Shown piece by piece: positions 1,470 to 10,614 of a stretch of DNA of 23,427 nucleotides. Source of the DNA: a virus; IMG/VR virus record IMGVR_UViG_3300044998_000191, positions 1 through 23,427 of that record; one strand, 5' to 3'. The notes beneath the pieces were generated by a model that saw only the letters and a list, made by a program, of their open reading frames with translations, was not told where the DNA came from and did not search any database. Each line of letters starts with the position of its first letter. The first letter of the stretch is position 1. The position numbers and the translations under genes were made by a program.

Positions 1470-1522
1470 TTCCAAACCGCCCGGGTTTTTATACTGGCAA
1501 GCCGACAAAGGTAAGGTAGACT
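1470..1522 (+). promoter_or_regulatory. Promoter cassette copy 1 (upstream of recT)
   Basis: A sigma70-like pair CTGGCA (1494-1499) and TAGACT (1517-1522) is separated by exactly 17 nt. The spacer ends in AAGGTAAGG. A dyad AAACC-N5-GGTTT lies at 1474-1488, with its left arm starting 20 nt before the -35. The same arrangement recurs at 2650, 10553 and 19735, which is the main evidence that it is functional. The dyad followed by T residues could instead act as a weak terminator for the methyltransferase transcript. Confidence 0.75.
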
Positions 1523-1534
1523 GCTTACATGAAC

Positions 1535-1553
1535 GCGGGGCCGAACACCCCGC
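1535..1553 (+). promoter_or_regulatory. 5'-leader hairpin with CCGAACA loop
   Basis: GCGGGG (1535-1540) pairs perfectly with CCCCGC (1548-1553) around the 7-nt loop CCGAACA. It would lie within the first ten or so nucleotides of the transcript predicted from the promoter at 1494-1522. An AAAAGGAAACC ribosome-binding stretch follows before the ATG at 1576. Equivalent hairpins with other stem sequences sit in the same place at 2711, 10615 and 19792. Confidence 0.65.
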
Positions 1554-1575
1554 CCAAACCAAAAGGAAACCAGCC

Positions 1576-2373
1576 ATGACCGACCAAACACTATTCGCCC
1601 ACTGCCTTTCCCGCATCGGCGTGATTCTGGACGTGAAGGCCGCCGACCTGAAGGCGGCCGGGGCGACAAAGACGGCCGCCGCGGCTATGGCTTGGCTTTC
1701 GGACCCTGACCGCGCCTTTGACGTGGTGACCCGGTGCCGCCCGGAATCAGTGGTGCAGGCGATTTTCGATTTCGCGGCCATGGGCGTGGCCCCGGACCCG
1801 ATGGTGGAATGGGGATACTTCCGCCGCCGCGGCGACACAGCCCGGCCCGGGCTTGGCTACAAGGGCGTTATTTACCTGTTGACCAAAGATCCAGCCGTGC
1901 ATTCGGTGGACGTTCAGGCCATCTACGCGGGCGACACGGACGGCCACGGCGGGCCCGCTAAGGTTATCCTTGGCACCAGCCCGCGCATTGAACACGCGGT
2001 GAACCTTGAAGCGGCCCGGGGCGATACCGAAGCCGCCGCAATTGTGGGCGTTTACGGTGTGCTGCACTACCGCAACGGCGGCCCGCCCAAGATTGAATAC
2101 ATGACCCGGGCACAGGTGGAACAGGTGCGGGCGGAATCAGCCGACCCACAGGGCGACCCGTGGCGGCACTGGTGGGCCGGTATGGCCCGCAAAAGCGTGG
2201 TCCACCGCCTGCGCAAATATGTTCAGGTGGCCCCGGAACTGGCCCACGTTCTGGCCAGCGACGAAAGCGGGGAATATGCCCCGGCCGCGCCAGCCCCGGA
2301 ACCGGCGGCGGCAAAATCGAAACTAGATACACTGGAAGAAGCCGCCGACCTGTACGGCGCACCGAAAGGGTAA
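1576..2373 (+). CDS. recT: RecT-family single-strand annealing recombinase
   Basis: This 265-residue protein matches the RecT family, which coats single-stranded DNA and anneals it to complementary strands during phage recombination and repair. Visible hallmarks are the GYKGVIYLL segment near residue 95, a central stretch with VGVYGVLHYRNG, the EYMTRAQVEQVR segment, and the end-of-domain helix GMARKSVVHRLRKYVQVAP leading to LASDE. The tail (about 230-265) is Ala/Pro-rich. The ATG at 1576 is chosen because an AAAAGGAAACC ribosome-binding stretch precedes it and the region further upstream is the promoter/leader cassette; an open frame reaching to 1423 would run through that cassette. No obvious RecE or lambda-type exonuclease is adjacent; the coiled-coil protein at 3127 may be a partner. 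Confidence 0.92.
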   Translation: MTDQTLFAHCLSRIGVILDVKAADLKAAGATKTAAAAMAWLSDPDRAFDVVTRCRPESVVQAIFDFAAMGVAPDPMVEWGYFRRRGDTARPGLGYKGVIYLLTKDPAVHSVDVQAIYAGDTDGHGGPAKVILGTSPRIEHAVNLEAARGDTEAAAIVGVYGVLHYRNGGPPKIEYMTRAQVEQVRAESADPQGDPWRHWWAGMARKSVVHRLRKYVQVAPELAHVLASDESGEYAPAAPAPEPAAAKSKLDTLEEAADLYGAPKG

Positions 2374-2649: not shown

Positions 2650-2702
2650 TTCCAAACCGACCGGGTTTTTGTATTGGAAAGCCAACTAAGGTAAGGTACA
2701 CT
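2650..2702 (+). promoter_or_regulatory. Promoter cassette copy 2 (upstream of gene 2767)
   Basis: TTGGAA (2674-2679) and TACACT (2697-2702) are separated by 17 nt ending in AAGGTAAGG. The dyad AAACC-N5-GGTTT is at 2654-2668, again with its left arm 20 nt ahead of the -35. It follows a strong terminator directly, so it must supply transcription for the long replication operon. Confidence 0.8.
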
Positions 2703-2710
2703 GATGGCAT

Positions 2711-2731
2711 GGCCGGGTAGAACGCCGGGCC
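2711..2731 (+). promoter_or_regulatory. 5'-leader hairpin with GTAGAACG loop
   Basis: GGCCGG (2711-2716) pairs with CCGGGCC (2725-2731), with one bulged G, around the loop GTAGAACG. It starts at about the predicted transcription start, as in the other cassette copies. The loop keeps the shared GAAC; the stem sequence differs from the other copies. Confidence 0.5.
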
Positions 2732-2766
2732 GGAAGTGAACCAAGGGAAACCAAAGGGAGACAGTC

Positions 2767-3069
2767 ATGTATCTCACAATCGTCAGCCTGCACTGCGATA
2801 ACAACGAAAAGCGCAACATCCGGTTCGTGCAGCCTGTGACCAGCTACGACCAAGACGGCACGCCGAATGACAGCGCGATTCTGGACGCAGCAGAGGCTAT
2901 CGCACACGCCGCTCCGGCAGACGCATTTGACGCTTTCGGCCAGAAGGCGCGGAATTGGTTGACAAGCGCCGACTACGACAAGCACGACACGCTCAACGAG
3001 GCACTGGCCACAAGCGGCGGCAAACGCAATCGCGCCGAATCGTTCGAAACGCGCATGGTCGGCAGCTAG
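2767..3069 (+). CDS. Conserved-looking phage protein of unknown function
   Basis: This 100-residue protein starts at an ATG preceded by AAAGGGAGAC. The sequence is soluble, with an N-terminal beta-like stretch (MYLTIVSLHC) and a helical middle rich in Ala/Asp. No family is recognised. It is the first gene downstream of promoter cassette copy 2. Its codon use mixes GAG with GAA, slightly unlike its neighbours, which use GAA almost exclusively. Confidence 0.7.
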   Translation: MYLTIVSLHCDNNEKRNIRFVQPVTSYDQDGTPNDSAILDAAEAIAHAAPADAFDAFGQKARNWLTSADYDKHDTLNEALATSGGKRNRAESFETRMVGS

Positions 3070-3076
3070 GGCTGCC

Positions 3077-3090
3077 GCCTGAACACAGGC
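3077..3090 (+). promoter_or_regulatory. Intergenic hairpin with AACA loop ahead of gene 3127
   Basis: GCCTG (3077-3081) pairs with CAGGC (3086-3090) around AACA, and a second short hairpin GCCGG/CCGGC follows at about 3089-3101. The ribosome-binding stretch GAAAGGAC lies downstream, before the ATG at 3127. The CTGAACAC sequence also occurs in the leader hairpin at 19792. No promoter elements are visible here, so this would be an internal mRNA structure. Confidence 0.35.
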
Positions 3091-3126
3091 CGGGATCTTC
3101 CGGCACCACAACGAAAGGACACTACC

Positions 3127-4146
3127 ATGACTGAACAGACGCAGGACCGCACGGAAGCCATGCTGGCACCGTTCCACCCGCTCCGCGCGGAACTGGCCCG
3201 GCTGGTGGAAGAAAACGCGGCAAAGACTTTTGACCTGACCACCAGCACCGGTGAAAAGGCGTGCCGGTCCCATATCTACGCCCTGCGCTTGAAGAAGGGG
3301 GAAATTGACCGGGTGCGCAAGGCCACAAAGGAAGACGCTTTGCGTTTCGGCCGCCGGGTGGAAGAAGTGGCCAAGGAACTGACCGCCGCGGTTGACGGCA
3401 TGATTGCGGTGCATCAGGGCCCATTAGACGAACTGGAAGCCCGGGAAGCGGCGCGCAAGGCAGCCATTGAGGCCCGCCTTTTGGACCTGCAGGTGGACCC
3501 GCTGGAAGTGTTCGCGGACGCGGCCACGGTCAAGGCTGTTATTGACCGGGTGCGCGCGGTGTCGGTGGATGCCAGTTTCCAAGAATACCAGCAACAGGCA
3601 GCCACGTTGCAAGCCGCCACGCTGCACCAGCTTGGTGTCAAACACGCGGCCATGGTCAAGCATGAAGCCGAACAGGCCGAACTGAACCGCCTGCGCGCGG
3701 AAGCGGCCGCCCGTGAAGCGGCGGACCGCGCTGCCAAGGAAGCCGCCGACCGTGAGGCCCGGGAAGCACTGATCCGCAAGGACGCTGAAAACAAAGCACG
3801 CTTGGCCGCCGAACAGGCCGCCGCGCGCAAGGCAGCGGAAGAAAAGGCCAAGGCAGATGCGGCGTTGGTGGCTGAACGAGAAGCACGCCTGAAGGCCGAA
3901 AAGGCCGCCGCCGACGCCAAGCGCAAGGCCGCTGAAGCTGAAGCCAAGCGCATTGCCGATGAACAAGCCGCAAAGGCCGCGGAAGAAAAGCGGGCGGCCA
4001 ACGCCCGGCACCGGGCCAAGGTTTTGAAGACGGCCACCGAAGCCGCCATGGCGGCGGTTGACGATTACACCCACCCGGCCTTGGTGGCGGCCATTATGGA
4101 AGCCGCGGCCGCAGGCAAGATTCCGGGCGTGACGGTCAACTTCTAG
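3127..4146 (+). CDS. Long coiled-coil phage protein, recombination-module associated
   Basis: This 339-residue protein has a structured N-terminal part (about 1-110) containing TFDLTTSTGEKACRSHIYALR and a helix with KKGEIDRVRKATKEDALRFGRRV. A very long Ala/Glu/Lys/Arg coiled coil follows (about 170-305), then a short C-terminal domain ending KIPGVTVNF. Proteins with this N-terminal pattern and a coiled-coil body are commonly found beside recT genes in phage genomes, and a role with the annealing recombinase is the best guess; the biochemical function is not known to me. The start is the first ATG after an AACGAAAGGACACTACC ribosome-binding region. The coiled coil is low in complexity and could mislead similarity searches. 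Confidence 0.8.
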   Translation: MTEQTQDRTEAMLAPFHPLRAELARLVEENAAKTFDLTTSTGEKACRSHIYALRLKKGEIDRVRKATKEDALRFGRRVEEVAKELTAAVDGMIAVHQGPLDELEAREAARKAAIEARLLDLQVDPLEVFADAATVKAVIDRVRAVSVDASFQEYQQQAATLQAATLHQLGVKHAAMVKHEAEQAELNRLRAEAAAREAADRAAKEAADREAREALIRKDAENKARLAAEQAAARKAAEEKAKADAALVAEREARLKAEKAAADAKRKAAEAEAKRIADEQAAKAAEEKRAANARHRAKVLKTATEAAMAAVDDYTHPALVAAIMEAAAAGKIPGVTVNF

Positions 4147-4155
4147 GGGGCGGCC

Positions 4156-4668
4156 ATGCAGGGGTGGGTCCGCCTTTGGCGCGTCTGGACGGCGGCGGGG
4201 GTTTCCGCCGACGCCAAGGCGTGGCTGGTAATGACCCACCTTCTGCTGCACGCCCGGTGGTCGCGTACCTACAACGCCACCTTCGGCTATTGGCTGGAAC
4301 CGGGGCAAACAGACTTGACCACGCCCATGCTGGTGGGGCTTACACGGTTGACAGAAAAGGAAGTCCGCGGTGCTTTGAAGCGGCTGGAAGACCGTTATCA
4401 CACAATCAAGGTGGACACGGTGTGGGGCACCCCGACGGGCGGCGGCAAGGGCAGGGCGGTGCGCGTTATAACTTTTGAACGCTGGCACCTTTACCAAAAC
4501 CCGGCGGAAGCACAGGGCGGGCCACAGGGCACCACCCCGGGCACCAGACAGGGCGGCCAAAGGGCAGCCGAAGGGCAGCCAAAGGGCCGGTCTATAAGAC
4601 TGCAAGAAGGGCAAGAAACGTCAGTCCCGAATCCGGGCGAAGACGTGGACCCATTGAAGTTTGACTGA
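4156..4668 (+). CDS. Winged-helix phage replication-type protein
   Basis: This 170-residue protein begins 9 nt after the preceding stop. Residues about 1-115 follow the pattern of the winged-helix N-terminal domain of phage replisome-organiser proteins: a helix with AKAWLVMTHLLLHA, then YWLEPGQTDLTTPML, then LTEKEVRGALKRLEDRYHTIKV, then a beta wing ending VITFERWHLYQNP. In that family the domain binds origin DNA and helps load the replicative helicase. The remainder is Gly/Gln-rich and probably disordered, and the usual C-terminal helicase-interaction domain is not evident. It lies in the replication operon upstream of the DnaA-like gene. It could also be a transcription regulator with the same fold. 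Confidence 0.7.
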   Translation: MQGWVRLWRVWTAAGVSADAKAWLVMTHLLLHARWSRTYNATFGYWLEPGQTDLTTPMLVGLTRLTEKEVRGALKRLEDRYHTIKVDTVWGTPTGGGKGRAVRVITFERWHLYQNPAEAQGGPQGTTPGTRQGGQRAAEGQPKGRSIRLQEGQETSVPNPGEDVDPLKFD

Positions 4669-5789: not shown

Positions 5790-6356
5790 ATGCCGCGCAA
5801 CAAATACAACCGCACGGTGCAGGACGGGGCAAAAGAAAATGCCGTGTCTGGCCAGTGCGAACTGATTTTGTGTGCCAGTGACGTGGTGCAGCCCCAACAC
5901 GTGGCGACGTGGCCCAAGGCCATGCAGTGCCGGGTGCGGGGCTTCTACCTGAAAACGCAAATGAAGAAACGCAAGTCCGTGGATCTGGCGACGTTCAAGA
6001 AGACGCAAACGCAAAGCCGCGGCATCCCTGACCTGCTGGTGCGCCTGAACCATTGGCCCACGGCGGTGTGGCTTGGGGTGGAACTGAAGAACCGGCGGGG
6101 CACGGGCAACCCGACGCCGGAACAGCGGCTGCTGTTTGACGCGGGCGCGGTGCTGGTGCTGGATTCGGCGGACGCCCTGTGGGCAAGAATCATGGAACTG
6201 GACAAACAACTAAGGGGAATCAATGGGCAAGGAACGAATTCCGCTGTGGGCATCGGAAGTGAACAGCCGGGCAATCCGCGCGCTGAAGGACAAGGCGGTT
6301 CAGGTGGTGCTGTTGATCGGTCCGCCGGGCATCGGCAAAAGCCGGTTGATTCGTGA
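5790..6356 (+). CDS. VRR-NUC domain nuclease (probable Holliday-junction resolvase type)
   Basis: This protein carries the VRR-NUC form of the PD-(D/E)XK nuclease fold. The visible motif is GIPD with D81, then GVELK with E98 and K100, then Q112 in PTPEQRLLF, followed by GAVLVLDSADALW. These enzymes cut branched DNA such as four-way junctions; in phages they usually sit with replication and recombination genes, as here. The domain is complete by residue 132. The last 45 or so residues are Gly/Ser-rich and are encoded inside the next gene, a 134-nt overlap. A TAA in the neighbouring frame at 6211-6213, 10 nt before the next ATG, suggests that a one-base shift removed the natural stop. Confidence 0.83.
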   Translation: MPRNKYNRTVQDGAKENAVSGQCELILCASDVVQPQHVATWPKAMQCRVRGFYLKTQMKKRKSVDLATFKKTQTQSRGIPDLLVRLNHWPTAVWLGVELKNRRGTGNPTPEQRLLFDAGAVLVLDSADALWARIMELDKQLRGINGQGTNSAVGIGSEQPGNPRAEGQGGSGGAVDRSAGHRQKPVDS

Positions 6357-7077
6357 GTTTGCAAAGCCCGGCGATTTGGTTTTGGACCCATGCCCGGATG
6401 ATTACAGTCCGGCAGCTTTAGACGCGGTTCTACTGGAAGACCGCCGGGTATTTGCCACGGCGTTGACCAGCAACGAATTTCATTCCTTCCCGCCCAAGCT
6501 GCGGACCCGGCTTGTGGGCGGCGCGGTGGTTCAGCTTGAACCATGGCCCCTGCACGAACGCCAACGCTTTTTCCGTTCGATTTGCGCGGCGGCAGGTGAA
6601 GACTTGGTGGCGCAGGTGGCCGCGGCCATGGTGACACCGGCCGAACTGGTTGGCGCGGCCATTACGCTTTCCGCTGCCATACCCATGGGCGCGGTGGAAA
6701 CGGCCCGGGCGCTAAACGGGCTGGTGCCGAATTCACTTACCATCATGGGGCGGATTTTGCCGGACGCCATTATCCATGAAGTGTGCGAACGCTTCGGGGT
6801 CCGCGAAGCGGACCTGAAGGGGCCAAGCCGCACACGCGGTTACGCCTACCCGCGGCACGTGGCCATGTACCTGCACACCCTGTTGACCGGGCTTACACTG
6901 AATGAAATTGGTGCGCACTTTGGCAACCGCGACCACAGCACCGTGTTGCACGCCAAAGCCAACATAGCCGGGCGGATGTTGACGGACGCCCGGGTGCAAC
7001 AGGACGTGGAAGCCATCAAACTGCGCTTGGGGGCGCGAATGGGCAAACGTGAACTATGGGCAAGGGAACCAAAATAG
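6223..7077 (+). CDS. DnaA-like replication initiator: P-loop ATPase plus DnaA domain IV
   Basis: This 284-residue protein has a Walker A motif GPPGIGKS at residues 33-40. A sensor-1-like stretch (FATALTSN) is followed by LRTRLVGGAVVQLEPWPLHER, as in DnaA/Hda AAA+ modules. A clear DnaA DNA-binding domain occupies about 183-265, with YPRHVAMYLHTLLTGLTLNEIG, FGNRDHSTVLHA and the helix-turn-helix before it. In bacteria that signature contacts the DnaA box. DnaA domain I is absent and the Walker B region is poorly conserved, so ATP hydrolysis is uncertain. A strong ribosome-binding site (AAGGGG, 5 nt spacing) supports the start. In the replication operon it probably recognises the phage origin, or competes at or recruits the host initiation apparatus. 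Confidence 0.88.
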   Translation: MGKERIPLWASEVNSRAIRALKDKAVQVVLLIGPPGIGKSRLIREFAKPGDLVLDPCPDDYSPAALDAVLLEDRRVFATALTSNEFHSFPPKLRTRLVGGAVVQLEPWPLHERQRFFRSICAAAGEDLVAQVAAAMVTPAELVGAAITLSAAIPMGAVETARALNGLVPNSLTIMGRILPDAIIHEVCERFGVREADLKGPSRTRGYAYPRHVAMYLHTLLTGLTLNEIGAHFGNRDHSTVLHAKANIAGRMLTDARVQQDVEAIKLRLGARMGKRELWAREPK

Positions 7078-7973
7078 AGTGGGCGCACAACACCCTGAAT
7101 TTCTGGATTGGCTGCACCGTGGTTTCCCCGGGGTGCGCGAACTGTTACGCGGAAACACAGGACGGCCGCTACCACTGGACTAGCCAAGGGTGGGGCGCTG
7201 GAAGGCCGCGCAAGCGCACGGCCCCGGCGACGTGGGCCAACCTGCGCAACTGGCACAAACAAAACGTGGCGGCCGGGCGGCGGGAACGTGTCTTCGTCAA
7301 CAGCCTGTCTGACTTCTTTGACGCGGACCCGGCGGTGCCGGACGCATGGCGCGCGGAAGCGTGCGCACTGATGGCCGAATGCACCAGCTTTGACTACCTG
7401 CTGGTCACCAAGCGCCTGAACGAACATTGCATATTCTGGTGCCAGTGGTTGACCGACCGGGGCGTGCGCTTTGCCCTGCTGGCATCGGTGGAAGACCAAC
7501 AGCGGGCAGACGAACGAATCCCCAAGCTGTTGACCATCCCGGCGACGTGGCACGGAATCAGCGCCGAACCGCTTTTGGGGCCGGTGGACTTGGCCCGGTG
7601 GTGTGGCTATGGGTTGAAGCCCGGCAACGGTGTACCGTACCGGCAATTCGTGGACGACACTTCATACCGGGAATACTTCAAAAGCGACCCGCCGCCGCGT
7701 TCCCTTGATTGGGTGATTGTAGGCGGCGAAAGCCACCCAAAGCCCACCAAGGCGCGGATCTTTGACCGGGCGTGGGGCAAGGCGTTGGCCGATCAATGCA
7801 CGGCCGCCGGTGTGGCGTACTTCTTCAAGCAGGAAGGAAGCCACGTTGCCGGGCTTGGCGGCGTGCCGACAACCAACAACGACAAGGGCCACGACAAAAG
7901 TTTGTGGGCACCATGGATGGTGCAGCAATTCCCCAAAGGCATGGCCATTTCAGAAGGGGAACTCCGTGTCTAA
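7056..7973 (+). CDS. DUF5131 / phage Gp37-Gp68 family protein
   Basis: This 305-residue protein starts with the family signature: TKIEWAHNTLNFWIGC, then VSPGCANCYAE. The cysteines at residues 20, 27 and 30 form a possible metal or iron-sulphur ligand set. It continues with the typical VFVNSLSDFFD, YLLVTKRL, ISAEPLLGPVDL, DWVIVGGES and AGVAYFFKQ segments. The family is frequent in phages and has a radical-SAM-like barrel pattern; its reaction is not established to my knowledge. It overlaps the DnaA-like gene by 22 nt and the following gene by 8 nt, so it belongs to the same operon. Confidence 0.88.
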   Translation: MGKGTKIEWAHNTLNFWIGCTVVSPGCANCYAETQDGRYHWTSQGWGAGRPRKRTAPATWANLRNWHKQNVAAGRRERVFVNSLSDFFDADPAVPDAWRAEACALMAECTSFDYLLVTKRLNEHCIFWCQWLTDRGVRFALLASVEDQQRADERIPKLLTIPATWHGISAEPLLGPVDLARWCGYGLKPGNGVPYRQFVDDTSYREYFKSDPPPRSLDWVIVGGESHPKPTKARIFDRAWGKALADQCTAAGVAYFFKQEGSHVAGLGGVPTTNNDKGHDKSLWAPWMVQQFPKGMAISEGELRV

Positions 7974-8256
7974 GTGGCCAGCACCAAAAGCCAATTCGCT
8001 GGCCCCGGGTTACATCCCGAACAACGCGGCGACGGTCTACCGGCTGGAAGAAGACCGGCAAGCGGTGCGGGCGGCCATTGACCACGCGCTGCTTTGGCTG
8101 GAATGGAAGGCACTAGCCAAGGCCAGCAACAAGCCGGACGCGGACGTGGTGGGGATGAACAAACGCATGGCGGACCTGCAGCACCGCATGGACGCGGCGC
8201 TAGTGGTGGTGAAGCGGGCAAAGAACACAAGGGGCAAACGTGCCAACCCTGTTTGA
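7966..8256 (+). CDS. Small helical phage protein, unknown
   Basis: The GTG at 7966 overlaps the previous stop by 8 nt (GTGTCTAA), preceded by AAGGGG. The 96-residue product has a helical middle (VYRLEEDRQAVRAAIDHALLWLEWKAL) and a later helix with MNKRMADLQHRMDAALVVVKRA, ending in a basic tail. No family is recognised. It overlaps the next gene by 17 nt. The GTG start is chosen because an in-frame start further upstream would lie deep inside the preceding DUF5131 gene. Confidence 0.65.
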   Translation: MSKWPAPKANSLAPGYIPNNAATVYRLEEDRQAVRAAIDHALLWLEWKALAKASNKPDADVVGMNKRMADLQHRMDAALVVVKRAKNTRGKRANPV

Positions 8257-8824
8257 TAACGCGCGGCCGCCGTGGGACTTGGTGACCGAACTGGAAGCCC
8301 GCTTGGAACACCTGAACCGGGTTTTAGACGCCGCAGAGGCCGACTTGCGGCGGCTGGAAAGCATGGAACGGCAGAACCTTGTCAACCTTGCGGCCATCCA
8401 GCGCGAGAATGAAGCCCTGCGCGAACGCGCCCGGGAAAAGCTGGCGCGGCCGATGGTGCGCAATACCGATGGCGACACCAGCCGGGAAGCGGAAGAAGGC
8501 AACCGGGCCATCAGGCGGGAACAGATCCAAAAGTTTGTGGCGGTGTTTCATGCCGCCGGGGATGATGGATTGACCGACGAACAGGCCCACGACGCTGTGG
8601 GATTGCAAAGCCACACCCCGCGCGTGGCGGATATGAAACGCGCGGGCATGTTGGAACCAACAGGACAACGCCGGGCAACGAAAAGCGGGGCGACAGCGCG
8701 CGTTTATCGGCTGGTGAAGGAATGGAAAGGGCAAGGCTATGCACAGACGCACACGGAAGCCGACCACGGGACCGAAACAAGCACCGGATCTGACCCCGAA
8801 CCCGACGAAGGCGCAGGTGATTGA
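8240..8824 (+). CDS. Coiled-coil protein with C-terminal winged-helix-like domain
   Basis: This 194-residue protein begins at GTG. Residues about 12-75 form a charged coiled coil (ELEARLEHLNRVLDAAEADL onward). Residues about 110-165 look like a winged helix: DGLTDEQAHDAVGL, then HTPRVADMKRAGMLEP and TGQRRATKSGATARVYRL, which would be the recognition helix and wing. That suggests DNA binding, perhaps as a regulator or replication accessory. The tail is acidic and disordered. No named family is recognised. It overlaps the previous gene by 17 nt and the next by 86 nt. Confidence 0.68.
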   Translation: MPTLFDNARPPWDLVTELEARLEHLNRVLDAAEADLRRLESMERQNLVNLAAIQRENEALRERAREKLARPMVRNTDGDTSREAEEGNRAIRREQIQKFVAVFHAAGDDGLTDEQAHDAVGLQSHTPRVADMKRAGMLEPTGQRRATKSGATARVYRLVKEWKGQGYAQTHTEADHGTETSTGSDPEPDEGAGD

Positions 8825-9611
8825 AGCCGAACTGACCGCCGCGCAACTGGCGCAGGAAGGTGTGGCCGCTTACGGGGGCCGGTACGCCCTGCACAAAACG
8901 TACATTGGCCCCGATGGTGTAATCACCACGGACGGCCGCCGCCTGATACTTTCGCGCTACGCCACAAACGCGGCGGTGCCGACGCATGGATTCTTGCTTT
9001 CCGAATCATTGCGCAGGGCCGCGGCCAAACTGAAGTGTGCCAAGGTGCGCGTGGTCTACAAAACGGCCGGGCGCGGCACCATGACCGTGACCGGCACCGA
9101 CGAACGCACGGGCCAGCGGCGCGCCGTGTCGGAATTCGTGGTGGGCGGCGGGGACAATTACGGCACTTATCCCAACGTGAAACAAGTTTTACCGCCGCAC
9201 CCGCCGGGCACGCTGTGCGTGCAACTTGACGCCGCTTACCTGATGCAAGCCGCCCGGGCGCTTACCCGGTTTGTGAACGAACGCGGGTATGGACTGCCCG
9301 GCGTGTTTCTGCTGGTGCGTCCGCCCGAAAAGGATGGCAAGAGGGTGGGCAACGTGACTATTTCGGAAAGCCCCGTGGACCTGCTGATGGTGCCGGATGA
9401 CAATGCACTGGCACCACACGGCGCGGCCGCTTTGCTTATGCCCATTGACACCCCCGTAGACGAACTGGCGCGGGCGCTGGCCAACAACCCGCTGAACATC
9501 AAGCCGACGGAAGCCCCGGTGGCCCCGGAAATGGAAGTCCAAATGGCGGCAGCACGCGACGCCGCCCGGAAGGCGGCCGCCGCCAAACCCGCAAAGGAAA
9601 GCAAAACATGA
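8739..9611 (+). CDS. Possible sliding-clamp-like (DnaN-like) protein
   Basis: This 290-residue protein has segments that recall a divergent bacterial DNA polymerase clamp: GVITTDGRRLILSRY, a following FLLSESLRRAAAKL, YPNVKQVLPPHP before a new beta-helix unit VQLDAAYLMQAARAL, and a terminal ALLMPI like the MP-x-x end of DnaN. It is shorter than a three-domain clamp (about 370 residues), and its last 45 residues are Ala/Lys-rich. A clamp would fit the neighbouring DnaA-like gene. The resemblance is by eye and may be wrong. The start at 8739 has a GAAAGGGCAAGGCT leader almost identical to that before 11002; a GTG at 8817, giving an 8-nt overlap, is an alternative. Confidence 0.5.
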   Translation: MHRRTRKPTTGPKQAPDLTPNPTKAQVIEAELTAAQLAQEGVAAYGGRYALHKTYIGPDGVITTDGRRLILSRYATNAAVPTHGFLLSESLRRAAAKLKCAKVRVVYKTAGRGTMTVTGTDERTGQRRAVSEFVVGGGDNYGTYPNVKQVLPPHPPGTLCVQLDAAYLMQAARALTRFVNERGYGLPGVFLLVRPPEKDGKRVGNVTISESPVDLLMVPDDNALAPHGAAALLMPIDTPVDELARALANNPLNIKPTEAPVAPEMEVQMAAARDAARKAAAAKPAKESKT

Positions 9612-10551: not shown

Positions 10552-10552
10552 T

Positions 10553-10604
10553 TCCAAACCGCCCGGGTTTTTATATTGGAAAGCGCACTAAGGTAAGGTA
10601 CACT
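10553..10604 (+). promoter_or_regulatory. Promoter cassette copy 3 (upstream of gene 10658)
   Basis: TTGGAA (10576-10581) and TACACT (10599-10604) are separated by 17 nt ending in AAGGTAAGG. The dyad AAACC-N5-GGTTT is at 10556-10570, its left arm 20 nt ahead of the -35. The following CTGATGGCAT matches copy 2. Confidence 0.8.
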
Positions 10605-10614
10605 GATGGCATAA

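Follow-up and report, generated by a model that had tools for sequence, protein, structure and literature searches.

Analysis of the window, i.e., the whole stretch of 23,427 bases from an IMG/VR virus record, revealed an open reading frame (ORF) at positions 6223–7077 of the plus strand, which starts with ATG and encodes a protein of 284 amino acids, here called P0001. Judging by its sequence, P0001 is a shortened form of DnaA, the initiator of chromosome replication in bacteria, in which the DNA-binding part (domain IV) is kept and the motor part is stripped down to an AAA+ remnant. A ribosome-binding site (AAGGGG, 6212–6217, plus strand) ends 5 nt before the ATG codon. Although the start of the gene overlaps an upstream ORF, the GC content by codon position there still resembles that of known genes of the window, with 0.61/0.45/0.75 over residues 1–44 compared to 0.64/0.43/0.75 for the portal gene. 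Over residues 45–175, values of 0.69/0.49/0.66 were obtained, with a weaker signature over residues 41–81 (0.68/0.44/0.56). Based on the ribosome-binding site and a coding signature like that of known genes of the window, the 284-residue frame proposed in the initial annotation is a real gene. A frameshift or a wrongly chosen start as the source of the short AAA+ part was also considered and is unsupported, given the ribosome-binding site and the coding signature in frame.

A search against Pfam assigned residues 180–246 of P0001 (6760–6960, plus strand) to DnaA domain IV (Bac_DnaA_C, E = 4.8e-25, 87.8 bits at a cut-off of 31.5), while the best non-DnaA Pfam match to this part reached an E-value of 0.052, so that DnaA is by far the best-scoring helix-turn-helix family for this segment. 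Model TIGR00362 (DnaA) matched residues 82–267 (2.4e-28, 99.4 bits), a score that does not reach its curated equivalog cut-off of 343.9. The domain IV signature that had been recognized at the outset, FGNRDHSTVLHA, is the DnaA-box recognition signature at residues 233–244 (6919–6954, plus strand) and lies inside the Bac_DnaA_C match; the RDH[ST]T signature of the domain IV helix-turn-helix is likewise present in P0001. In a MAFFT alignment of 24 rows (A3), in which 23 DnaAs are set beside P0001, R211, D237, and H238 are invariant in all rows. A predicted model of P0001 based on a 24-row alignment (mean pLDDT 75.6) could be superimposed on domain IV of E. coli DnaA (1j1v) over 94 residues with an rmsd of 0.7 Å and a Z-score of 19.3. 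According to the sequence alignment with 1j1v, R399, D433, and H434 of the E. coli protein correspond to R203, D237, and H238 of P0001, T435 to S239, and K415 and P423 to T219 and N227, respectively. These E. coli residues have roles in reading the DnaA box. In alignment A3, the column of N227 is mostly P, and each of the 23 DnaAs has either R or K in the column of T219. Since K415 and P423 are replaced by T219 and N227, the DNA specificity of P0001 may differ. A search of one article (PMC13220808) for domain IV residue names found none. Altogether, the predicted fold of domain IV is intact, and most key DNA-contact positions are kept.

The reduced AAA+ domain (domain III) covers residues 1–175 (6223–6747, plus strand). 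Its Walker A motif, the P-loop GPPGIGKS already pointed out in the initial annotation, was located at residues 33–40 (6319–6342, plus strand), with K39 invariant in 24/24 rows of A3. As the P-loop begins only 32 residues from the start and no DnaA_N was found in the Pfam search, domain I is indeed missing. Overall, P0001 is devoid of domains I and II and of about 45–50 residues of domain III. The distance from K39 to the arginine finger of box VII (R96, 6508–6510, plus strand; R in 24/24 rows of A3) is 57 residues, compared to 100–111 in the 23 DnaAs. In DnaA, the missing stretch contains the initiator-specific motif and the single-strand-binding loop. Contacts of domain III residues of DnaA with single-stranded DNA are described in PMC4980987. 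The AAA+ lid spans residues 110–155 (6550–6687, plus strand) and is without the sensor-II Arg/Lys, which is found in 23/23 DnaA rows of A3 and replaced by a gap in P0001.

Walker B, previously called weak, turned out to have two candidates on which the alignments disagree. Alignment A3 sets E72-D73 (in LLE72-D73; 6436–6441, plus strand) on Walker B, the column of D73 being D in 24/24 rows. The phage profile alignment favors DLVLDP at residues 51–56 (6373–6390, plus strand), as it aligns residues 65–79 with the helix and strand that precede the arginine finger and lets 16 residues of P0001 (49–64, including LVLD55-P) replace about 62 profile positions. While the LVLD55-P placement keeps a plausible beta-alpha-beta order, the E72-D73 placement needs two strands without a crossover between them. 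A single-sequence model, too poor for use (pLDDT 41.5), displayed a strand at DLVLDP. The AAA+ core of the predicted P0001 model is of low confidence (pLDDT 47–76) and does not decide between the two candidates, so that even nucleotide binding by P0001 is putative. Operation without the usual ATP cycle, as suggested initially, is plausible in view of the loss of the sensor-II arginine and the degraded Walker B, although P0001 retains Walker A and the arginine finger.

When residues 1–175 were compared with a profile built from the domain IIIs of 13 phage DnaAs (13 of 15 gathered proteins, L134 and L203 left out), they scored 37.5 bits, while the best of 1000 shuffles reached 10.0 and the best among the 1669 of 2000 shuffles listed from a second run reached 6.9. 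A profile of 12 bacterial domain IIIs (12 of 13 gathered proteins, L207 left out) gave 7.6 bits (best shuffle 4.8). Scores of 30.4 and 17.8 bits were obtained with five shorter and eight larger phage domain IIIs (best shuffles 9.5 and 7.3, respectively), 11.4 bits with two proteobacterial ones (4.8), and 11.7 bits with a mixed profile of 23 bacterial and phage DnaAs covering domains III–IV (4.2). Pairwise BLASTP analysis revealed no separation of the groups, as L206 (Shinella) and L036 (phage) shared the best score of 26.9 bits. Based on the scores of the phage versus the bacterial domain III profiles, the fairest name for P0001 is a reduced member of the phage III-IV DnaA group, with which it shares the phage domain III profile match, the presence of domain IV, and the absence of domain I. 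Scans of viral and genome contigs with P0001 or its AAA+ part found no second copy of the truncated form, and the genome-contig scan led to 19 loci with domain IV ORFs of 445–519 residues, which is the length of bacterial DnaA. In a public phage collection, 43 records matched P0001, all with less than 60% identity. One of the gathered sequences, L207 from Rhizobium johnstonii plasmid pRlX5, is an unannotated open frame of 399 residues with a DnaA-type P-loop, which may represent a paralogue of DnaA belonging to a plasmid or prophage.

Searches of viral contigs, which represent a sample, yielded at least 175 loci with domain IV, at least 130 of which are distinct by their domain IV sequence. 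Among the matches listed, domain III was detectable in 17 of the 130 distinct viral domain IV proteins and not in the other 113, the latter with a median length of 173 aa, and none of the 130 listed was reduced like P0001. Minimal III-IV forms of 328–350 aa were found in L126, L144, L175, and L189 (4 of the 17, among the matches listed); the protein of L134 (308 aa), which is short and has no P-loop, was left out of this set. Since stand-alone domain IV accounts for 113 of the 130 distinct viral sequences listed and several DnaAs are publicly annotated, the initial view that such a protein is unusual in a phage was too strong, though it holds for the cut-down AAA+ part joined to domain IV.

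A domain IV tree (117 rows, 97 columns; seven duplicates or fragments and loci L126–L205 left out) was weakly resolved and gave no clear position for P0001. It contained a supported clade (99/81) of 19 viral rows, in which members that have domain III are interspersed with others that lack it, such as L057 paired with L092 (95/84) and L109 with L100 and L065 (99/87). This mixing within one clade suggests, at the sequence level, a repeated loss of domain III among phage DnaAs. Taken together, the data suggest that phages carry DnaA in a graded series of I-III-IV, III-IV, reduced III-IV, I-IV, and IV alone. These stages would offer natural tests of the purpose of each domain and of how little AAA+ a usable DnaA can keep. 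L122 encodes, at 7774–8562, a phage protein that combines domain I (DnaA_N 25.1 bits, cut-off 24.6) with domain IV and is devoid of an AAA+ domain. Two short N-terminal motifs, chosen after being seen, recur among 75 domain IV proteins, namely TP[ST]Q in eight (shuffle mean 0.11) and [HR]Y[KER].[VI]R in seven (shuffle mean 0.045), while a longer TP[ST]Q form in two (shuffle mean 0.335) is not striking. Proteins with these motifs include those of L065, L109, L121, L040, and L047 as well as L043, L120, L114, and L123, and the motifs may serve as partner-binding peptides in place of domain I.

For the gene neighborhood, nine annotated phage records were opened. One of them, CAKLQH020000026.1 (L032), labelled Acinetobacter phage MD-2021a, carries a bacterial rpmH-rnpA-dnaA-dnaN-recF region and is thus at least partly host DNA, leaving eight phage records. 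In these annotated relatives, a DUF1376 gene was located just upstream of the domain IV gene (one record), a replisome-organizer-like gene just downstream (one record), a replication protein gene downstream (one record), and an annealing protein gene nearby (two records). In 3/8 records no replication gene was annotated beside the domain IV gene, its neighbors being hypothetical, nuclease, or DUF2312 genes. A DnaN gene was identified in the flanks of 6/130 distinct loci among the matches listed, and in 5 of the 130 listed (L065, L115, L126, L197, and L192) it follows 0.6–1.9 kb downstream on the same strand, i.e., in dnaA-dnaN order, which raises the question of whether the origin cassette of the cell was taken up as a unit. 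In L126, the dnaA-dnaN pair is flanked by two similar proteins (2654–3556 and 6978–7874), which by eye look like targets of a diversity-generating retroelement.

DnaA is generally treated as a cellular protein. P0001 resembles bacterial DnaA (TIGR00362; PDB 8btg, 1j1v) in the fold and signature of domain IV, the arginine finger, the lid, and Walker A, but differs from it in being without domains I–II and the sensor-II arginine, in its shortened nucleotide-binding core, and in having no complete AAA+ with an initiator-specific motif. With the phage III-IV DnaAs (L126, L144, L175, and L189, as well as L036, L043, and L109 of about 410 aa) it shares the combination of AAA+ and domain IV with no domain I detected, but the AAA+ core of these proteins is of full length. 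Phage proteins with a stand-alone domain IV, such as those of Rhizobium phage RHph_N28_2, Pelagibacter phage HTVC204P, and Microcystis phage Mae-JY35, are similar in their phage domain IV and differ in having no AAA+; several of them are encoded near recombination or replication genes. DnaA genes have been reported for Polaribacter phages P12002L and P12002S (PMC4615864), and neither DnaA nor DnaN is mentioned in the main text of a meta-analysis that covers 103 genomes of alphaproteobacterial phages (PMC10783043). A search of the open-access literature found no report of a reduced AAA+ in a phage DnaA, and another one on phage sliding clamps found no such report either. Thus, phage DnaA is already annotated and published, while the reduced AAA+-plus-domain-IV form is new.

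Upstream of P0001, the window encodes a RecT single-strand annealing protein (1498–2373, plus strand; Pfam RecT, 1.2e-18); a DNA methylase gene and, just downstream of P0001, a DUF5131 gene were also identified. ORF 5790–6356 was read by eye as a VRR-NUC-like nuclease, a reading to which database searches gave no support. Likewise by eye, ORF 4156–4668 was read as a winged-helix (lambda-O-like) replication protein; searches in Pfam, PHROGs, PDB, and phage sequences resulted in no hits, and BLASTP revealed no match to ORF 10142–10729 of L003, which is DUF1376-like by eye. Inside ORF 4156–4668 lies an iteron-like array (4550–4587, plus strand) of 3.5 copies of the 11-bp direct repeat AGGGCAGCC(A/G)A, which is not a protein repeat since its unit of 11 is not a multiple of three. 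The self-match score of the array, which was chosen after being seen, was reached by 1 of 1000 synonymous-codon draws, and that of its ORF was 19.5 compared to 6–8 in nine other ORFs of the region. The array may be a candidate phage origin; its repeats are unlike a DnaA box, and nothing ties it to P0001. With respect to DnaA boxes, all 18 matches to TTWTNCACA in the window carry one mismatch, in agreement with the earlier remark that no perfect box is present. These 18 one-mismatch sites are fewer than the 25.6 expected from shuffles, i.e., DnaA boxes are not enriched, and a DnaA-box cluster in the window was rejected as well.

ORF 8739–9611 (plus strand) was tentatively regarded as a possible diverged sliding clamp (DnaN-like) based on phrog_947 (7.7e-5), which is outscored by phrog_3007, named RusA-like (1.3e-5). 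Bacterial and phage DnaN profiles and phage records gave no match to this ORF, a search of the window as DNA with phrog_947 was negative, and pairwise comparison with the short clamp of L192 revealed a weak similarity (E = 0.013). A 61-nt direct repeat occurs at 1470–1530, 2650–2710, and 10552–10612, with 84–100% similarity to one copy. Two copies display a TTGGAA-17-TACACT arrangement by eye, and a consensus promoter scan listed no promoter; the copies are probably phage promoter repeats.

For the function of P0001, we see about an even chance that it acts as a site-specific adaptor in the initiation of phage replication, unable to open an origin alone. Domain IV would direct P0001 to sites of the phage DNA that resemble DnaA boxes, and Walker A and the arginine finger, both retained, would allow a nucleotide-dependent contact with a neighboring AAA+ subunit, either host DnaA or P0001 itself. 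As domain I, the initiator-specific motif, and sensor II are absent, P0001 is unlikely to open DNA or to cycle ATP alone; it would be unable to stretch and open the origin by itself and may instead help host initiation proteins to come together at the origin of the phage, possibly at the array at 4550–4587. Domain I of DnaA is described as functioning in oligomerization, helicase loading, and DiaA contacts (PMC4980987). The domain-IV-alone proteins of phages provide a parallel, as they must work without any ATPase. The RecT gene upstream, the several phage relatives located among replication genes, and the recurrence of III-IV forms point to such an adaptor, while the lack of DnaA-box enrichment in the window and of a close relative with the same truncation among those found argue against it. 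Further points against it are the low confidence of the modeled AAA+ core, the iterons being unlike a DnaA box, the replaced contact residues T219 and N227, the negative searches with ORF 4156–4668 and with DnaN profiles for ORF 8739–9611, and the 3/8 phage records with no replication gene annotated beside the domain IV gene. The genomic position favors a role in phage replication over competition for host DnaA boxes, as had been considered in the initial annotation.

An Hda-like brake, in which domain IV sits at host DnaA boxes and R96 triggers ATP hydrolysis by host DnaA, or the boxes are simply blocked, seems unlikely to us and is the bolder alternative. Hda has no domain IV, whereas P0001 does; the clamp-binding motif consensus includes a glutamine, which is absent from the weakly similar N-terminal RIPLW of P0001 (by eye), a candidate that is not convincing. 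Like Hda and HdaA (TIGR03420, NF051883), P0001 has a compact AAA+ without domain I, and it keeps R96 and has lost sensor II. Residues 1–175 alone matched Hda best in NCBIfam (TIGR03420, 21.7 bits, E = 1.2e-4; HdaA 15.1 bits), while no DnaA model of NCBIfam matched them; this score is far below the curated Hda cut-off of 194.8, and we regard it as a weak competing signal from sequence. Moreover, its neighborhood includes a recombination gene, while none of the known host-takeover genes was recognized there. A precedent for such a brake is the E. coli prophage protein YfdR, for which DnaA binding and inhibition of initiation are described (PMC4776307).

More doubtful is a transcription regulator, whose domain IV would control phage or host promoters while the AAA+ remnant mediates pairing only. 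Several phage relatives sit among replication genes, and no cluster of DnaA-box-like sites was found at the promoter-like 61-nt repeats, whose three occurrences in the window (1470, 2650, and 10552) would otherwise fit this explanation, as would the fact that DnaA itself is also a transcription factor. We consider it improbable that P0001 is a DNA-addressed switch, i.e., a minimal ATP-binding unit at DnaA boxes whose arginine finger forces hydrolysis of host DnaA-ATP; if true, this would amount to an Hda that finds its target via DNA and not via the clamp. Least probable, in our view, is a decaying remnant in which DNA binding alone matters and the AAA+ part is a non-functional relic in transition to the form with domain IV only, which is common in phages. 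Against it, Walker A is perfect, R96 is kept, and most of the AAA+ part displays a normal coding signature; in its favor, P0001 has lost sensor II as well as the stretch that carries the initiator-specific motif, and 113 of the 130 distinct viral domain IVs listed have no detectable domain III.

In regard to the host, the structural genes leave it undecided: the capsid protein is nearest to those of Dinoroseobacter phages (48–49%) and Pseudanabaena phage Pan1 (48%), and the terminase shows about 40% to phages of several hosts. A virus contig of 9158 bases, IMGVR_UViG_3300045902_000216 (L004), encodes a portal protein 100% identical to that of the window, so that this phage, or one very closely related to it, has been sampled at least twice.
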